Source: an uncultured Eubacteriales bacterium
GTDB taxonomy: Bacteria; Bacillota; Clostridia; Oscillospirales; Acutalibacteraceae
NCBI GenBank assembly: GCA_900315785.1
Contig: ONAL01000008.1
Coordinates: forward strand, 1-47,651
Direction: 5' to 3'
DNA: 47,651 nucleotides
Under the pieces are notes generated by a model. The model was not told where the DNA came from. It searched no databases and saw only the letters and a program-made list of their open reading frames with translations. Each line of letters starts with the position of its first letter. Position 1 is the first letter of the stretch. The position numbers were made by a program, and so were the translations under genes. Below, one piece after another: positions 3,280 through 16,766 of the stretch.

Positions 3280-4755
3280 TCATTTACCTCTGCAGGCTCT
3301 GACGGCGCTTCTCCAGCCGTCAAGAAGCGCTTGCCTTGTACTTTCGTTTATGTATGGAGTGAAAACGCTCTGAACCTCAGCTCCTGAGGGCGCGCCGCCG
3401 TCAAAAAGTCCGACCGCTCTGCCCGCAAGATACGCGGCTCCGACGGCTGTGGCTTCCTTCTGCTTCGGTCTGACGACCTCGAGGTCTGAAATATTCGCCT
3501 GAAACTGCATAAGCAGATTGTTTGACGAAGCTCCGCCGTCGACCCTGAGCGTGCCGATTTCGAGAGCGGCGTCCTCTCGCATTGCGCCTATTACGTCGTT
3601 TGACTGGAAGGCTATCGACTCAAGCGCCGCGCGGATAATGTGCTCGCGTCCCGTGCCGCGGGTTAGACCCGTTATCACGCCGCGGGCGCGCATATCCCAG
3701 TAAGGAGCGCCGAGACCCGCAAAAGCGGGAACGACATACACTCCGCCGTTGTCCATAACCTTGCCCGCGAAGTATTCGCTGTCGGCGGCGTCATCAATAA
3801 GTCTGAGCTCGTCGCGGAGCCATTGGATAACCGCTCCGCCCGTGAAAACGCTGCCCTCGAGCGCGTAGGATACGGGCTCGTCCTTTGCGGTTGCGGCGAT
3901 TGTGGTGAGAAGTCCGTTCTTGCTGAGGACGGGCTTTTCGCCCGTATTCGCGAGCAGAAAACAGCCTGTTCCGTAGGTGATTTTGAGGTCGCCTGCCTTG
4001 GTGCAGCTCTGACCGTAGAGCGCCGCCTGCTGGTCGCCCGCGATTCCGCAAATCGGAACCTCGGCGCCCATAAGGTTCATAGAGCCGTAATACTCGCTGC
4101 TCGACCTGACCTCGGGAAGCATTGAGAGCGGCACGCCGAAGATTTCACAGAGCTTTTCGTCCCACTCAAGTGTGTTGATATTATACAGCATTGTCCTCGA
4201 CGCGTTGGTGCGGTCGGTGACGTGAACCGCTCCCTCGGTGAGCTTCCAGACGAGCCAGCTGTCGACCGTTCCGAAGAGCAGCTCTCCCCTCTCGGCACGC
4301 TCACGCGCGCTCTCGACGATGTCGAGAATCCATTTTATTTTCGTTGCGCTGAAATACGCGTCAAGCCTCAGACCTGCCGCGGAGCGGATATATTCTCCGT
4401 GACCCTCGAGCTCGAGCCTGTCGCAGATATCCGCCGTGCGGCGGCACTGCCAGACAATCGCGTTATAGACAGGCGCGCCTGTCGCCTTGTCCCAGACAAT
4501 GACGGTCTCGCGCTGGTTTGTGATTCCGATACCGGCGACCTCCTCGGGGCTGACGCCGCTCTTCGCGATACACTCCGTGAGCGACGCGTACTGCGTGGCG
4601 TAGATTTCCATCGGGTCCTGCTCGACCCAGCCCGCCTGAGGATAATACTGCGGAAACTCCTGCTGAGCCATACTGACAACGTTCATCTTGCTGTCAAAGA
4701 GTATGCTCCGTGCGCTTGTGGTGCCCTCGTCCAGGGCAAGGATGTATTTTTTCAT
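3280..4755 (-). CDS. glpK: Glycerol kinase
   Basis: Phosphorylates glycerol with ATP to sn-glycerol-3-phosphate in the cytoplasm, for catabolism and lipid synthesis. The 491-aa length and FGGY-kinase layout are standard: N-terminal phosphate loop [25 protein letters not shown], the glycerol-contact region around NQRET and [18 protein letters not shown] and YGTGCFLL, and the C-terminal RVDGGASSN motif. An in-frame GTG nine bases upstream lies inside the Shine-Dalgarno sequence (GAGGTGG), so the ATG at 4755 is the real start. No glpF or glpD is adjacent; instead the lipase-like hydrolase follows after one base. Confidence 0.97.
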
Positions 4756-10828: not shown

Positions 10829-12178
10829 TCAGTCAATAATGTGACCCTTTTCACGGATAACGTCGATAACGCTGTCTACGTACTTCTCGCAGACCTCGTC
10901 CGAGCCCGCCTCGACCATTACTCGGATAACAGGCTCTGTGCCTGACTCTCTGAGCAGGATACGTCCGTTCTCGCCGAGCTCCTCAGCTACGGCGGCAACA
11001 GCCTTCTGTACGTCGGGGTCGTTCTTAGCGTCGGGCTTCGACTTAACACGCACGTTCTTGAGAACCTGCGGATAGCGAACCATCGGAGCCGCGAGCTCGC
11101 TCATGGGCTTCTCCTTGGCAAGCATAACTTCCATCAGCTTGAGCGAGGTGAGGATACCGTCGCCTGTGGTAGCGTACTTCTGGAAGATAATATGACCTGA
11201 CTCCTCGCCGCCGATACGGTTGCCTGTCTGCATCATATTCTCATAAACATACTTGTCGCCTACACTTGTCTTGTCGTACTCAATGCCGACCTTGTCGAGA
11301 GCCTTGAAGAGACCGAAGTTACTCATAATTGTCGCAACAACCTTGTTGTTGACAAGCTTGCCTCTCTCCTTCATATAGCAGCCGTAGATGTAGATGATGT
11401 GGTCGCCTGTGATGAGGTTGCCCTTCTCGTCAACCGCGAGACAGCGGTCAGCGTCGCCGTCGTAAGCAAAGCCGATGTCGAGACCTTTTTCAACAACGAA
11501 CTTCTGTAAATGCTCGATGTGAGTTGAACCGCAGTCGGTGTTGATGTTGTAGCCGTCGGGAGCGTCGTTGATTACGAATGTCTTTGCGCCGAGAGCGTCA
11601 AAAACGCCCTTCGCAATCTGCCATGAAGCGCCGTTCGCAACGTCGAGACCTACCTTCTTGCCCTTGAAGCTGAACTTGCTCATAGAGATGAGGTAGCCGA
11701 TATAGCGGTTGCGGCCTGCTACATAGTCAACTGTGCGTCCGATTTCCTCTCTGCCTGCAACGGGGATTTCGAGCTTGCCGTCGATGTATTCCTCGACCTT
11801 GAGCAGAGTCTCCTCTTCCATCTTCTCGCCGTTTGAGTTGAGAAGCTTGATACCGTTGTCATAGTAGGGGTTATGTGAAGCGGAAATCATAATTCCGCAG
11901 TCAAAATCGTCAACGTGTGTGATATACGCAACCGAGGGAGTTGTGGTTACGTGCATAATATACGCGTCGGCTCCGCTCGCCATAAGACCTGTGCAGAGCG
12001 CGTACTCGAACATATATGAGGAACGGCGTGTATCCTTACCGATGACAACCTTCGCCTTCTTACCCATATTCGCGCCGAAGTACCAGCCGAGGAAGCGTCC
12101 GATTTTTATAGCGTGCTCAAAGGTGAGGTTTTTGTTAGCCTCGCCTCTGAAGCCGTCTGTGCCGAAATATTTGCCCAT
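10829..12178 (-). CDS. glmM: Phosphoglucosamine mutase
   Basis: Converts glucosamine-6-phosphate to glucosamine-1-phosphate, on the route to UDP-GlcNAc for peptidoglycan. The 449-aa protein has all four domains of the alpha-D-phosphohexomutase family: FGTDGFRGEAN at the start, the phosphoserine loop ISASHNP (Ser101), the metal site DGDADRC, the sugar loop GGEESGH and the phosphate loop RESGTEPVIRVM. AAAGGAAGGC precedes the ATG, which begins two bases after the stop of the acetyltransferase gene. It is the last gene of the ribozyme-led operon. Confidence 0.97.
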   Translation of the reverse strand: MGKYFGTDGFRGEANKNLTFEHAIKIGRFLGWYFGANMGKKAKVVIGKDTRRSSYMFEYALCTGLMASGADAYIMHVTTTPSVAYITHVDDFDCGIMISASHNPYYDNGIKLLNSNGEKMEEETLLKVEEYIDGKLEIPVAGREEIGRTVDYVAGRNRYIGYLISMSKFSFKGKKVGLDVANGASWQIAKGVFDALGAKTFVINDAPDGYNINTDCGSTHIEHLQKFVVEKGLDIGFAYDGDADRCLAVDEKGNLITGDHIIYIYGCYMKERGKLVNNKVVATIMSNFGLFKALDKVGIEYDKTSVGDKYVYENMMQTGNRIGGEESGHIIFQKYATTGDGILTSLKLMEVMLAKEKPMSELAAPMVRYPQVLKNVRVKSKPDAKNDPDVQKAVAAVAEELGENGRILLRESGTEPVIRVMVEAGSDEVCEKYVDSVIDVIREKGHIID

Positions 12179-12180
12179 CG

Positions 12181-12840
12181 TTAAGCCTTCCTTTCAATAA
12201 CAGTGCCGTTGTTCTTGTGGATGCAGTTCTCGGGGATAACGCCGCGCACGCAGGATGTGGGATAAACGCTCGCGTGTCTGCCGATAACCGTACCCGGGTT
12301 GCAAACAGCGTTGCAGCCGACCTCAACGTAGTCGCCGAGCATTGCGCCGAACTTCTTGATGCCTGTTTCGATGCTCTCGGTGCCGTTGTGAACTACGACA
12401 AGCTTCTTGTCGGATTTAACATTCGATGTGATTGAACCCGCGCCCATATGTGAGAAGTAGCCGAGGATAGAATCGCCGACGTAGTTGTAGTGCGGTGTCT
12501 GAACGTGGTCAAAAAGGATTACGTTCTTGAGCTCAACCGAGTTGCCGACTACGCAGTCAGCGCCGACAAGCGCCGAGCCTCTGATAAACGCGCCGTGTCT
12601 TACCTCGGTGTTGGGACCGATGATACAGGGAGCGCCGAGATATGCGGACGGGAAAACGGTAGCTGTCTTGTGAACCCAGACGTTCTTCTCTCTCTCCTCG
12701 TACTCGTCGCCGAGTGTGGGACCGAGCTCAAGGATAAAGTCCTTGATACCCTTCAGAGCTTCCCAGGGATAGGTGAACTGTGAAAGATAATCCTTCGCGA
12801 GAGTATGGTCAAGGTCATACAGATCCTTAATAGTATACAT
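12181..12840 (-). CDS. Stand-alone left-handed beta-helix acetyltransferase, GlmU C-terminal-like
   Basis: A 219-aa hexapeptide-repeat protein resembling only the acetyltransferase half of GlmU. Residues 1-50 are a helical cap (IKDLYDLDHTLAKDYL); from about 55 the beta-helix repeats run (LGAPCIIGPNTEVRHGAFIRG). His117 in TPHYNYVGDS lines up with the catalytic histidine of GlmU (GHLTYLGD in E. coli), and GAGSITSN matches GlmU's GAGTITCN. There is no N-terminal uridylyltransferase Rossmann domain. Predicted reaction: glucosamine-1-phosphate plus acetyl-CoA to GlcNAc-1-phosphate; substrate by homology and context. Its start overlaps the nagB stop in TAATG, and glmM follows, so the three are coupled. 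Confidence 0.85.
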   Translation of the reverse strand: MYTIKDLYDLDHTLAKDYLSQFTYPWEALKGIKDFILELGPTLGDEYEEREKNVWVHKTATVFPSAYLGAPCIIGPNTEVRHGAFIRGSALVGADCVVGNSVELKNVILFDHVQTPHYNYVGDSILGYFSHMGAGSITSNVKSDKKLVVVHNGTESIETGIKKFGAMLGDYVEVGCNAVCNPGTVIGRHASVYPTSCVRGVIPENCIHKNNGTVIERKA

Positions 12841-13631
12841 TAAAGTCTCTCCTTCTTTTCAATGTCAAGGAAGTATTTGTAAGCGTCAACTGTGAGCTCG
12901 CCGCACGCAGCCTCATCGCAGGCGATGATTGCGCCGTTGTGCATCTGGAGAGCGGAGCAGGTCCACTTGTGGCTTACTGAGCCCTCTACTGTCTCGGCAA
13001 GAGCCTTAGCCTTGTTGTGACCGTTGATAAGGATAAGAACCTCTTTGGAATCGGTAACTGTGCCGACGCCTACGGAAAGAGCCTGAGCGGGAACCGCCTC
13101 GGGGTCGTTGCCGAAGAAACGTGAGTTAACGATTCTTGTGTCTGTTGTGAGGTTTCTTACGCCTGTACGTGAGGTAAGGCTTGTGAACGGCTCGTTGAAC
13201 GCGATGTGTCCGTCAACGCCGATGCCGCCCATAAAAAGGTCGATGCCGCCGTAGGACGCGATTTTCTCCTCATATCTTGCGCACTCGCCCTCGGGGTCAT
13301 CGGTCATACCGTTGAGGATGTTGATGTTCTCGGGCTTCATATCTACAAGATGATTGAAGAAGTTATCGTGCATAAAGTACCAGTAGCTCTGGTCGTGCTC
13401 GTGGGGCAGACCGAGGTACTCGTCCATATTGAAGGTAACGACGTTAGCGAATGAAAGCTCGCCGTTCTGATTCATTGTGTAGAGCTCCTTGTAAACGCCG
13501 ATGGGCGAAGAGCCTGTCGGAAGTCCCAGAACGAAGGGACGGTCTTCCTTGTGATTTCTGATTTTGTCGGCAATGTAATTTGCCGCCCATTTACACATTT
13601 TATCGTAATTATCCTGAATAACAACTCTCAT
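12840..13631 (-). CDS. nagB: Glucosamine-6-phosphate deaminase/isomerase
   Basis: Reversibly interconverts glucosamine-6-phosphate with fructose-6-phosphate plus ammonia. The 263-aa protein has the NagB landmarks: GLPTGSSP, FNMDEYLGLPHEHDQSY with the catalytic Asp, and GGIGVDGHIAFNEP with Asp141 and His143, plus SLTSRTGVRNLT. AAGGAG lies 9 nt before the ATG. Usually NagB is catabolic and sits with nagA or a PTS; here it leads an operon of biosynthetic genes, and its leader carries a glmS-type ribozyme. That context points to use in the reverse, GlcN6P-forming direction, in place of GlmS. Enzyme identity is firm; direction is inference. Confidence 0.96.
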   Translation of the reverse strand: MRVVIQDNYDKMCKWAANYIADKIRNHKEDRPFVLGLPTGSSPIGVYKELYTMNQNGELSFANVVTFNMDEYLGLPHEHDQSYWYFMHDNFFNHLVDMKPENINILNGMTDDPEGECARYEEKIASYGGIDLFMGGIGVDGHIAFNEPFTSLTSRTGVRNLTTDTRIVNSRFFGNDPEAVPAQALSVGVGTVTDSKEVLILINGHNKAKALAETVEGSVSHKWTCSALQMHNGAIIACDEAACGELTVDAYKYFLDIEKKERL

Positions 13632-13656
13632 AATACAAATCTCCTTAATTATTTGG

Positions 13657-13801
13657 AAAATCGCGGTGACAAGAGAACCTCTGTTACAGTTTTAATTCTG
13701 CTTTTTGCTTTCTCTCTGACGGCTCACCAAAAGCCGTGGCAGCATCCGCCGAGTCTTTCGATAACTGCCAACCCTCGTCAACCTTGTCGGTCCTGGCGCT
13801 A
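13657..13801 (-). ncRNA. glmS-type self-cleaving ribozyme/riboswitch upstream of nagB
   Basis: Read on the minus strand, the leader contains the conserved glmS ribozyme core in order: AGCGCCAG at the cleavage site (predicted cut between the bases at 13800 and 13799), UUGACGAGG, UUAUCGA, UCGGCGGAUGC, a P3.1-like hairpin ACGGCU-loop-AGCCGU, an AAGC/A-rich joint, and a P4-like hairpin from ACAGAG to CUCUUGU. GGCAG before UUAUCGA pairs with CUGCC after GGAUG, as the fold requires. In this class GlcN6P acts as cofactor: it triggers cleavage and decay of the downstream mRNA. About 26 nt separate it from the nagB start codon. The unusual point is the gene controlled. I match it from memory of the consensus; a covariance-model search would confirm. 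Confidence 0.92.
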
Positions 13802-13844
13802 ATAGTCCCTGATACTCCTTTCGAAAGAGGCTATTTTATGTATA

Positions 13845-14022: not shown

Positions 14023-14051
14023 ATTTTACCATATACAGTAGGAAAAGTCAA
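14023..14051 (-). promoter_or_regulatory. Promoter of the nagB-glmM operon
   Basis: On the minus strand TTGACT (14051-14046) and TAAAAT (14028-14023) have a 17-nt spacer. This places the transcript start near 14016 and gives a leader of about 385 nt. The -35 box lies about 30 nt from that of the divergent deacetylase gene. Confidence 0.8.
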
Positions 14052-14897: not shown

Positions 14898-16766
14898 TTA
14901 GTTGGTCAAGTGATTGAAGGTCGGAACCATATTTTCAAGGAGCGAGAGCACCTTGTCGCTCTCGTTTGACTCGGCAGCGTTTCTGAGCTCGTCGAGCTCG
15001 GGAAGGAAGCTGTCGGCGTTGATGTCAATCTGGTTGCCGATAAAAATCTTCTTGTTTACTGTCTTTTTCAGACCCTCTTCGTCCATAAGCAGCTCCTCAT
15101 AGAGCTTCTCGCCCGGGCGAAGTCCCGTGAACTTAATCTCCACGTCCTTATACGGTTCCTTGCCGTACATACGGATAAGGTTCTCCGCAAGGGTTACAAT
15201 CTTGACGGGCTCACCCATATCGAGGACGAAAATCTCGCCGCCCTTGGCTATCGCTCCTGCTTCGAGCACGAGCGAAACCGCCTCGGGAATCGTCATAAAG
15301 TAGCGGATAATATCGGGGTGAGTGACCGTTACGGGGTTGCCCGACTCAATCTGACGGCGGAAAAGCGGAATAACCGAGCCGTTGGAGCCGAGGACGTTTC
15401 CGAAACGCGTTGTGACAAAGTCGGTGTGCTCGCTTCGCTGAGCCTTGTACTGGATAATCATCTCGCAGACGCGCTTGGTACAGCCCATAACGTTTGTGGG
15501 GTTGACCGCCTTGTCGGTTGAGATGAGCACGAACTTGTCCGCCTTGTACTTTTCGGCGAGCGTCGCGACGTTGAAGGTGCCGAAGATATTGTTCTTGACG
15601 GCTTCCTCGGGGACTGTCTCCATAAGCGGAACGTGCTTGTGAGCTGCAGCGTGGAAAACGAGCTGAGGACGGTATTTAGCGAAAATATAATCCATCTTGT
15701 CGTAGTCGCGAACCGAGGAAATCAACGTGACGAGGTCAATGCTGTCGCCGTATTCCATAATGATTTCCTGCTGAACGTCGTAGGCGTTGTTCTCGTAGAT
15801 ATCGACAATGATAATACTCTTGGGGCTGTACTTCGCAATCTGACGGACGAGCTCGGAGCCGATTGAACCGCCGCCGCCCGTAATCATACAAACCTTGCCC
15901 TTGATAAAGGCTTTTATCTCGTTTTTATCAAAGGAAACGGGCTCTCTGCCGAGCAAGTCCTCAATCTTGATGTCGACCGCCTGGCTGATGAGCTGAGTGT
16001 GCTGGTCATCAAAAAGAAGGTCGCCGAGGTACGGGATAACCTTAATCTTACACTTTGTGAGCGCGCAGATATCGAGGATACGCTTTCTGTCGTCCTTGGA
16101 ACAGGACGGAATCGCGAAGATAATCTGCTCGACGTTGAAGCTCTCAGAGATGCTCACGATATCTGAGGTCGTGCCCAGAACGCGTTCGCCGCGGACGCGG
16201 CTGTGGATTTTTGCGGGGCTGTCGTCAACGAGACCGACCACGTCGATGTTGGCGGTGGGGTTGTTGGGGTCGAAGCGCGAGCCCTCAATCTCCGCGAGAA
16301 TCATCTCGGCGGCGTGACCTGCGCCGACAATCAGCGTGCGGACGGCGTTGCTGTCTTTTCCCGCGTCGGAGATTGTCAGGAAGGTCTTTCTGAAGCAGAA
16401 CCTGAACAGCAGAACGCCTGCTGTTGTGACAACAAAGTTAATCAAAAAGAACAGCTTCGAAACGTCGCGATGAACCATAAAGAAAATGAGAATCGCGAGG
16501 AGCTGTCCCGCGAACATTCCCGCTCCGCAGATAACGTAGTCCGTTAGCTTGAAGTAACGCCACGATTTGGCGTAGGAGCCGAGGGAGAACTGAATCAGAC
16601 CGCACAGGATGACGTCCGCTATCATAATATAATAAAGCCCGAAAAAGCCGTGCGAATACGATGGAGCTATGAAATGGAAAATAGAGTTTGTGATAAGAGT
16701 GCCGACAATGATAATGAAAATATCGGCAAACGCAAGGATAAGCTTGCGCACGTTAAAATTCTTCAC
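14898..16766 (-). CDS. Membrane UDP-GlcNAc 4,6-dehydratase-like protein (CapD/PglF type)
   Basis: A 622-aa polysaccharide biosynthesis protein of the long CapD/WbpM/PglF class. Residues 1-125 hold about four membrane helices; a first Rossmann-like domain follows (VGAGHAAEMIL, VGLVDDSP), then the catalytic SDR domain from about residue 290 with TGGGGSIGSELV and STDKAVNPTNVMGCTKR. In this class Met replaces the usual SDR Tyr, as seen here (NVMGCTKR). Expected reaction: UDP-GlcNAc to its 4-keto-6-deoxy derivative for surface glycans. Translation starts at GTG with a strong AGGAGAGG. Its substrate would come from the neighbouring amino-sugar operon. Confidence 0.88.
   Translation of the reverse strand: MKNFNVRKLILAFADIFIIIVGTLITNSIFHFIAPSYSHGFFGLYYIMIADVILCGLIQFSLGSYAKSWRYFKLTDYVICGAGMFAGQLLAILIFFMVHRDVSKLFFLINFVVTTAGVLLFRFCFRKTFLTISDAGKDSNAVRTLIVGAGHAAEMILAEIEGSRFDPNNPTANIDVVGLVDDSPAKIHSRVRGERVLGTTSDIVSISESFNVEQIIFAIPSCSKDDRKRILDICALTKCKIKVIPYLGDLLFDDQHTQLISQAVDIKIEDLLGREPVSFDKNEIKAFIKGKVCMITGGGGSIGSELVRQIAKYSPKSIIIVDIYENNAYDVQQEIIMEYGDSIDLVTLISSVRDYDKMDYIFAKYRPQLVFHAAAHKHVPLMETVPEEAVKNNIFGTFNVATLAEKYKADKFVLISTDKAVNPTNVMGCTKRVCEMIIQYKAQRSEHTDFVTTRFGNVLGSNGSVIPLFRRQIESGNPVTVTHPDIIRYFMTIPEAVSLVLEAGAIAKGGEIFVLDMGEPVKIVTLAENLIRMYGKEPYKDVEIKFTGLRPGEKLYEELLMDEEGLKKTVNKKIFIGNQIDINADSFLPELDELRNAAESNESDKVLSLLENMVPTFNHLTN

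Follow-up and report, generated by a model that had tools for sequence, protein, structure and literature searches.

A glmS-type ribozyme ahead of nagB in an amino-sugar operon of gut bacteria

The ribozyme and its operon

A glmS-type ribozyme, an RNA class named for its usual place ahead of glmS, was predicted from sequence alone to lie in the leader of nagB in a 47,651-nucleotide (nt) contig of an uncultured Eubacteriales bacterium of the family Acutalibacteraceae (ONAL01000008.1, positions 1 to 47,651; hereafter the window). A cmscan search of the whole 47.6-kb window gave one match above the gathering score, the glmS ribozyme (RF00234) at 13811-13661 on the minus strand. The match covers the whole model (positions 1-167), with 68.0 bits (gathering score 37) and an E-value of 1.3e-13. 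The next gene is nagB, whose ATG at 13631 follows the end of the Rfam model by 29 nt. The covariance model thus bears out the original prediction, including its short spacing, although the distance is 29 rather than about 26 nt and the match begins at 13811 rather than 13801. The conserved blocks it had named were all located as AGCGCC, GACGAGG, AUCGA and UCGGCGGAUGC, and these four catalytic blocks are common to the window copy and canonical glmS ribozymes (alignment A1). Cleavage is predicted between A-1 (13800) and G1 (13799) of the minus strand, a computed position; A-1 and G1 are described as flanking the site in the glmS ribozyme (PMC11602151). A second model, R1, was built from 26 sequences, and the window ribozyme (locus L027) scores 133 bits with R1, which was built partly from this very copy.

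The ribozyme leads a tightly packed minus-strand operon, nagB-acetyltransferase-glmM, that runs through to 10829. The nagB gene (12840-13631, 263 aa) encodes a member of the glucosamine-6-phosphate deaminase family (TIGR00502, 376 bits, cut-off 237), as the original prediction had held for the first gene behind the ribozyme. Its relatives in the PDB are glucosamine-6-phosphate deaminases, and it aligns with the solved enzymes at DEYxGL and DGHIAFNEP, which we take to be the active-site motifs of NagB. The second gene (12181-12840, minus strand) overlaps the end of nagB by a single base and encodes a 219-aa left-handed beta-helix acetyltransferase with hexapeptide repeats, similar to the C-terminal half of archaeal GlmU. 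This protein matches Arch_glmU with 140 bits over profile positions 212-393, under the family cut-off of 292, and its best relatives are PDB entries 2ggo and 5z09 (residues 243-390), acetyltransferase halves of archaeal or alternative GlmU. Two nt further on begins glmM (10829-12178, minus strand), encoding a 449-aa phosphoglucosamine mutase (TIGR01455, 540 bits, cut-off 448). The extent first proposed, 12840-13801, stops short of the operon's end.

The window's genome (G000; 1.67 Mb, 57 contigs, 91.5% complete) also holds a complete glmS on another contig (763 bits, cut-off 418). Neither an Rfam scan nor an R1 scan found a ribozyme in the 4.8-kb neighbourhood of this gene, and the only RF00234 match in the genome is the copy at nagB. 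The classical arrangement, with the ribozyme in front of glmS, is not found here: nagB is the first gene and glmS stands elsewhere. The original prediction had named a glmS with its own ribozyme, together with an inactive RNA at nagB, as evidence that would count against it; the genome search found glmS ribozyme-free, and nothing suggests that the RNA at nagB is inactive.

Two features lie upstream. A promoter-like site at 14023-14051 on the minus strand (TTGACT, 17 nt, TAAAAT, with TG ahead of the second hexamer) has 10 of 12 consensus matches; it is a consensus match only, and the scanned region holds 11 such sites against 3.6 expected. Upstream of the operon, 14898-16766 on the minus strand encodes a protein like uridine diphosphate N-acetylglucosamine (UDP-GlcNAc) 4,6-dehydratases (PseB/FnlA-like), under the cut-offs for these families and possibly a user of UDP-GlcNAc.

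Integrity of the RNA

The structure of the RNA was followed in 89 nagB-operon copies aligned to the model; six repeats among named records, L063, L278-L280 and re-fetched loci were left out. The four catalytic blocks equal those of the window in 82 of the 89 copies. Five of the seven exceptions differ only in the AUCGA block, and one (L053) differs by one base in GACGAGG. The P2.2 pseudoknot pairs in 88 of 89 copies, and changes on both sides were seen in 17 of 30 helix pairs. The covariation score was 0.333, against 0.165 for shuffles (none of 500 reached it) and 0.101 or less for slid versions, in an alignment that was fitted to the structure and so favours the score.

The remaining exception, L267 in genome G361 (3321-4032), is missing a portion of the cleavage-site block and has a change in AUCGA; the nagB match behind it covers only residues 1-111. 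Judged from these sequences, RNA and gene look to have degenerated together.

Conservation of the pairing within the genus

RF00234 was searched in 148 relatives, 90 of which (G000-G089) share the genus of the window's genome. Within the genus, 42 of 90 genomes carry 44 matches, and reference proteins placed on all 44 loci put nagB next to the ribozyme in 43. The one remaining match (L063, the second in its genome, G046) stops at a contig edge. Outside the genus, glmS adjoins 17 of 19 matches, and neither glmS nor nagB was found within 1.5 kb around the ribozyme at the other two (L018 and L019). The 48 genus genomes without RF00234 comprise 43 without a nagB match, four with a divergent nagB described below, and G004, in which the tail of the window-type nagB lies at a contig end and the front is unassembled. 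A 42/0/0/48 split of RF00234 against nagB (Fisher test) was set aside because G004 has this nagB tail and because related genomes are not independent.

Across 120 genus genomes, glmS was found in 103 (E ≤ 1e-60) and nagB in 64 (E ≤ 1e-30). The latter comprise 57 with window-type nagB and seven with a divergent gene (277-281 bits; 'state C'). A ribozyme stands ahead of nagB in all 57 genomes where the window type was found; RF00234 detected 42 of these, R1 a further 12, and a further search the last three. R1 gave no ribozyme at the seven state C nagB loci or in the 31 genus glmS neighbourhoods scanned (of 103). A chance match was rejected on the score and E-value of the window copy and on this 57/57 agreement, and a mis-binned contig was likewise rejected, the arrangement being shared by 57 genus genomes.

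Part of the genus gives low Rfam scores (31-46 bits). Decay was rejected as the cause for most of these copies, since R1 gives 99-123 bits, albeit with the advantage that strong copies from this genus are among the sequences that went into it. The exceptions are L057 (79 bits) and L063 (cut at the contig end, 89 bits). Two R1 matches at L057 (3213-3475) could be read as a tandem ribozyme, an idea rejected since the sequence is one ribozyme with a long insertion. The ribozyme at L065 spans 255 nt.

In the seven state C genomes (L131-L137; for example L135 2040-4460 and L131 1497-3933), the divergent nagB adjoins a second glmM; in L135 this glmM has a helix-turn-helix domain fused to its N-terminal end. 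GlmS is absent from these genomes, the best match to the glmS model being at most 41 bits. NagB might replace GlmS in them, or they might require amino sugars as does Akkermansia, which depends on N-acetylglucosamine (GlcNAc).

The pairing beyond the genus

A contig scan with the window NagB took in loci beyond the genus, and the best 80 named loci were analysed. Among named records, rumen bins with Ruminococcus or Clostridiales titles come nearest, together with Ruminococcaceae bacterium P7 (L153), an isolate and not a bin to judge by its title. Many of the 80 are rumen or other ruminant-gut bins titled Ruminococcus, Lachnospiraceae, Clostridia, Erysipelotrichaceae, Butyrivibrio, Solobacterium and others, titles that can be wrong. 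R1 matches 38 of the 80 loci with 98-130 bits, one 14-bit match (L160) having been set aside, and at least six of these carriers (L151, L152, L155-L158) duplicate genus genomes. No R1 match was found in the stretch around each of the other 42 loci. RF00234, applied to 50 of the genomes behind these loci, matched 38, the same 38 as R1.

In all 38 named carriers the ribozyme precedes nagB or an operon that contains it. The order nagB-acetyltransferase-glmM occurs in 17, plus three with fewer than 400 bases left after it; one more has nagB-acetyltransferase near a sequence end. Seven have nagB with neither acetyltransferase nor glmM as neighbour, plus one near a sequence end. Other orders are acetyltransferase-nagB-glmM (four), nagB-glmM (two), acetyltransferase-glmM-nagB (two) and glmM-nagB-glmS (one). 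Because eight of 38 lack the acetyltransferase and glmM in the available stretch, nagB alone appears to be a sufficient target for the ribozyme. Exactly one RF00234 match was found in 37 of the carriers. The other, G217 (titled Solobacterium), has two, one at nagB (L191 3325-3478) and one at glmS (L272 1565-1716), with 31 nt between the end of the latter and the glmS match.

Across the class, RF00234 was found in 148 of 391 genomes and nagB in 230 of 391. Adjacency of the two is rare at this scale: compared by eye, only G000 and G482 show it among the nagB matches listed. Five further genomes with RF00234 place it at glmS (G600, G382 and G608), at acetyltransferase-glmM (G582) and before the truncated nagB match described above (G361). 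In G582 (L262 3051-5284) the ribozyme leads acetyltransferase-glmM, and that genome's nagB match is on another contig. On contig C39 of G380, two RF00234 matches (2273-2521 and 3851-4098; 94 and 91 bits) share a strand and are separated by about 1.3 kb.

Apparent horizontal transfer of the operon

The window proteins were compared with those of 30 genomes that have an available glmS locus. For 24 of these, of which 16 carry the ribozyme, identity to the window protein is 84-92% in NagB and only 47-53% in GlmS, and on the GlmS figure we judge these genomes to be distant. In the same 24, identity is 81-89% for the acetyltransferase and 80-89% for GlmM where it lies in the nagB locus. In the other six genomes GlmS is 88-92% identical.

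The glmM of the operon is itself unusual. In 11 genus genomes that lack the operon, the usual GlmM shares only 42-46% identity with that of the window, but the GlmM of G004 shares 87%. Among the 57 genus carriers, 53 have a single glmM match and four have none. Because of the contrast between NagB and GlmS identities, and because carriers hold a divergent and single glmM, the operon and its ribozyme most likely came from outside, the operon's glmM taking the place of the resident gene. This apparent transfer, read from protein identities and gene counts, had not been seen in the original prediction.

Direction of the NagB reaction

NagB of this operon is probably (about 0.75) an ammonia-using glucosamine-6-phosphate (GlcN6P) synthase under product feedback by the ribozyme. 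NagB would aminate fructose-6-phosphate (Fru6P) with free ammonia to yield GlcN6P, GlmM would convert GlcN6P to glucosamine-1-phosphate (GlcN1P), and the GlmU-like acetyltransferase would convert GlcN1P to N-acetylglucosamine-1-phosphate. Excess GlcN6P would serve as the ribozyme's cofactor and cause the leader to be cut between A-1 and G1. The operon messenger RNA would then be destroyed, as it is for Bacillus subtilis glmS.

Several lines of evidence favour the synthetic direction. The neighbours, glmM and a gene like the acetyltransferase part of GlmU, are biosynthetic; the ribozyme would sense GlcN6P as product feedback; the pairing is conserved in all 57 genus genomes in which this nagB was found and recurs outside the genus in several gene orders; and G217 has ribozymes at both nagB and glmS. 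Moreover, glmS looks broken in two carriers: the gene of G033 (100% complete, 40 contigs) is spread over three frames and has two in-frame stops, and that of G222 is split between two frames, the initial 102 residues being unmatched. Another genome with the ribozyme-nagB pair, G170 (93% complete), gave no glmS match above 40 bits. A search of 120 genus genomes, with a weak control (8 of 14), found no nagA. The NagB reaction is reversible with an equilibrium constant of 0.2 M (PMC11593775). From this constant we calculate 0.1 mM GlcN6P at equilibrium for 10 mM ammonium and 2 mM Fru6P, both assumed levels. Giardia provides a precedent, as its NagB is reported to make GlcN6P efficiently from Fru6P and ammonia (PMC4281351). 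The original prediction had argued that only a NagB working as a GlcN6P producer would give this arrangement a rationale. The comparative evidence supports that argument, though the direction is one that we infer.

Other observations weigh against a synthetic NagB. A glmS gene over the cut-off is present in the window's genome and in 29 of the 38 named carriers, so that NagB would mostly work beside GlmS. Frameshifts in draft genomes can be sequencing errors, and glmS is also in pieces in G205, a nagB genome without the ribozyme. No glmS over the cut-off was found in nine of 38 carriers and in three of 12 nagB genomes without the ribozyme. This equal frequency suggests that much of the absence reflects incomplete bins, and absence of glmS is only partly usable as a marker of NagB function. 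The controls of the nagA searches were weak, at 8 of 14 for the 120 genus genomes and 3 of 14 for a NagA_N search that matched 0 of 30 genomes. The Michaelis constant of Escherichia coli NagB for ammonium is 31.4 mM (PMC11593775). Akkermansia muciniphila has NagB and no GlmS; at physiological conditions its NagB, with values of 41 mM (ammonium) and 5.5 mM (Fru6P), is described as failing to aminate Fru6P to GlcN6P, which leaves the organism in need of GlcNAc (PMC5902328). Helix P4 of the ribozyme is also weakly paired, in 66% of cells.

The residues that correspond to Arg158 and Lys160 of E. coli NagB, which belong to its allosteric site, were considered as a mark of ribozyme-linked NagB. They are Gly and Arg in all 38 such proteins but also in 40 of 42 others, and the mark was rejected.

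Two alternatives leave the ribozyme active and assign NagB another role. NagB could be an ordinary catabolic passenger, with the ribozyme there to regulate glmM and the acetyltransferase. Enzymes of the NagB family are described as mostly catabolic (PMC4281351), and the ribozyme of G582 leads acetyltransferase-glmM with no adjoining nagB in the available stretch. We nonetheless regard this as unlikely: eight of the 38 named carriers have nagB alone behind the ribozyme in the available stretch, GlcN6P would switch off its own remover, and the weakly controlled screen of the genus found no nagA. Slightly less probable still is a two-way valve that equilibrates beside GlmS, making GlcN6P at high ammonia and otherwise removing it, while the ribozyme would do no more than lower operon expression at times of ample amino sugars. 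Retention of glmS in most named carriers and the ready reversibility of the reaction (PMC11593775) agree with such a valve, but the ribozyme would close it exactly when removal is needed, and glmS looks broken in two carriers.

The RNA might instead be a decayed relic that no longer cuts, as the weak pairing of P4 and the damaged cleavage-site block of L267 could suggest. That damage affects one copy in 89, and there the nagB match is itself truncated. The core is identical in 82 copies, the covariation is strong, P2.2 pairs in all copies but one, and substitutions are reported to be tolerated at 46 of 52 P4 sites in the B. subtilis glmS ribozyme (PMC11602151). Loss of function therefore seems very improbable, and an active ribozyme controlling a synthetic NagB stays the preferred reading.

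Relation to known systems

The B. subtilis ribozyme-glmS unit shares with the window RNA its class, on a full-length match, as well as the catalytic blocks and, we infer, the ligand and mechanism. The two differ in target, which in the window is nagB, usually together with the acetyltransferase and glmM, while glmS of the window's genome is ribozyme-free. Ribozyme-glmS units in other families of the order have the acetyltransferase, glmM or both alongside in several loci (for example L021, L022 and L050), but there the ribozyme leads glmS (17 of 19 matches) and not nagB. The catabolic NagB of the nag operons of E. coli and B. subtilis belongs to the same enzyme family; the window operon differs in its biosynthetic neighbours, its ribozyme control and the apparent lack of nagA, subject to the weak control noted above.

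A search of titles and opening abstracts found no description of a glmS ribozyme at nagB, older surveys of glmS-ribozyme distribution being outside that search. The abstract of McCown, Winkler and Breaker (2012) reportedly places the RNA 'almost exclusively' ahead of glmS, and exceptions may be on record. The ribozyme-nagB arrangement may be viewed as a variant of known glmS ribozyme control, and we leave priority unclaimed.

Anabolic NagB has a functional parallel in Giardia, whose enzyme makes GlcN6P from Fru6P and ammonia, the function proposed here for the window NagB. That enzyme is eukaryotic and induced at encystment, and the part of the report available mentions no ribozyme (PMC4281351). 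Akkermansia, a gut bacterium, resembles some genomes of this analysis in having NagB without GlmS. Unlike the NagB proposed here, its enzyme gives no GlcN6P synthesis at physiological conditions, and the available part of that source likewise mentions no ribozyme (PMC5902328).

Implications

The glmS ribozyme is a textbook case of a single enzyme regulated by its product. The same switch placed on an enzyme filed as the opposite of GlmS is genetic evidence on the direction in which a reversible enzyme works in vivo, and it opens a biosynthetic role of NagB in bacteria to direct testing. On balance, we favour the broader picture of a self-regulated amino-sugar operon that moves horizontally among gut and rumen bacteria, with NagB as a dedicated ammonia-dependent GlcN6P synthase. 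Arriving with its own ribozyme, such an operon would displace the host glmM, let glmS decay and free the synthesis of peptidoglycan precursors from its dependence on glutamine for the amino group. The findings also suggest that the operon takes its metabolite-sensing ribozyme along when it passes between distant gut bacteria, and that a catabolic annotation of nagB may be mistaken in ammonia-rich gut microbes.
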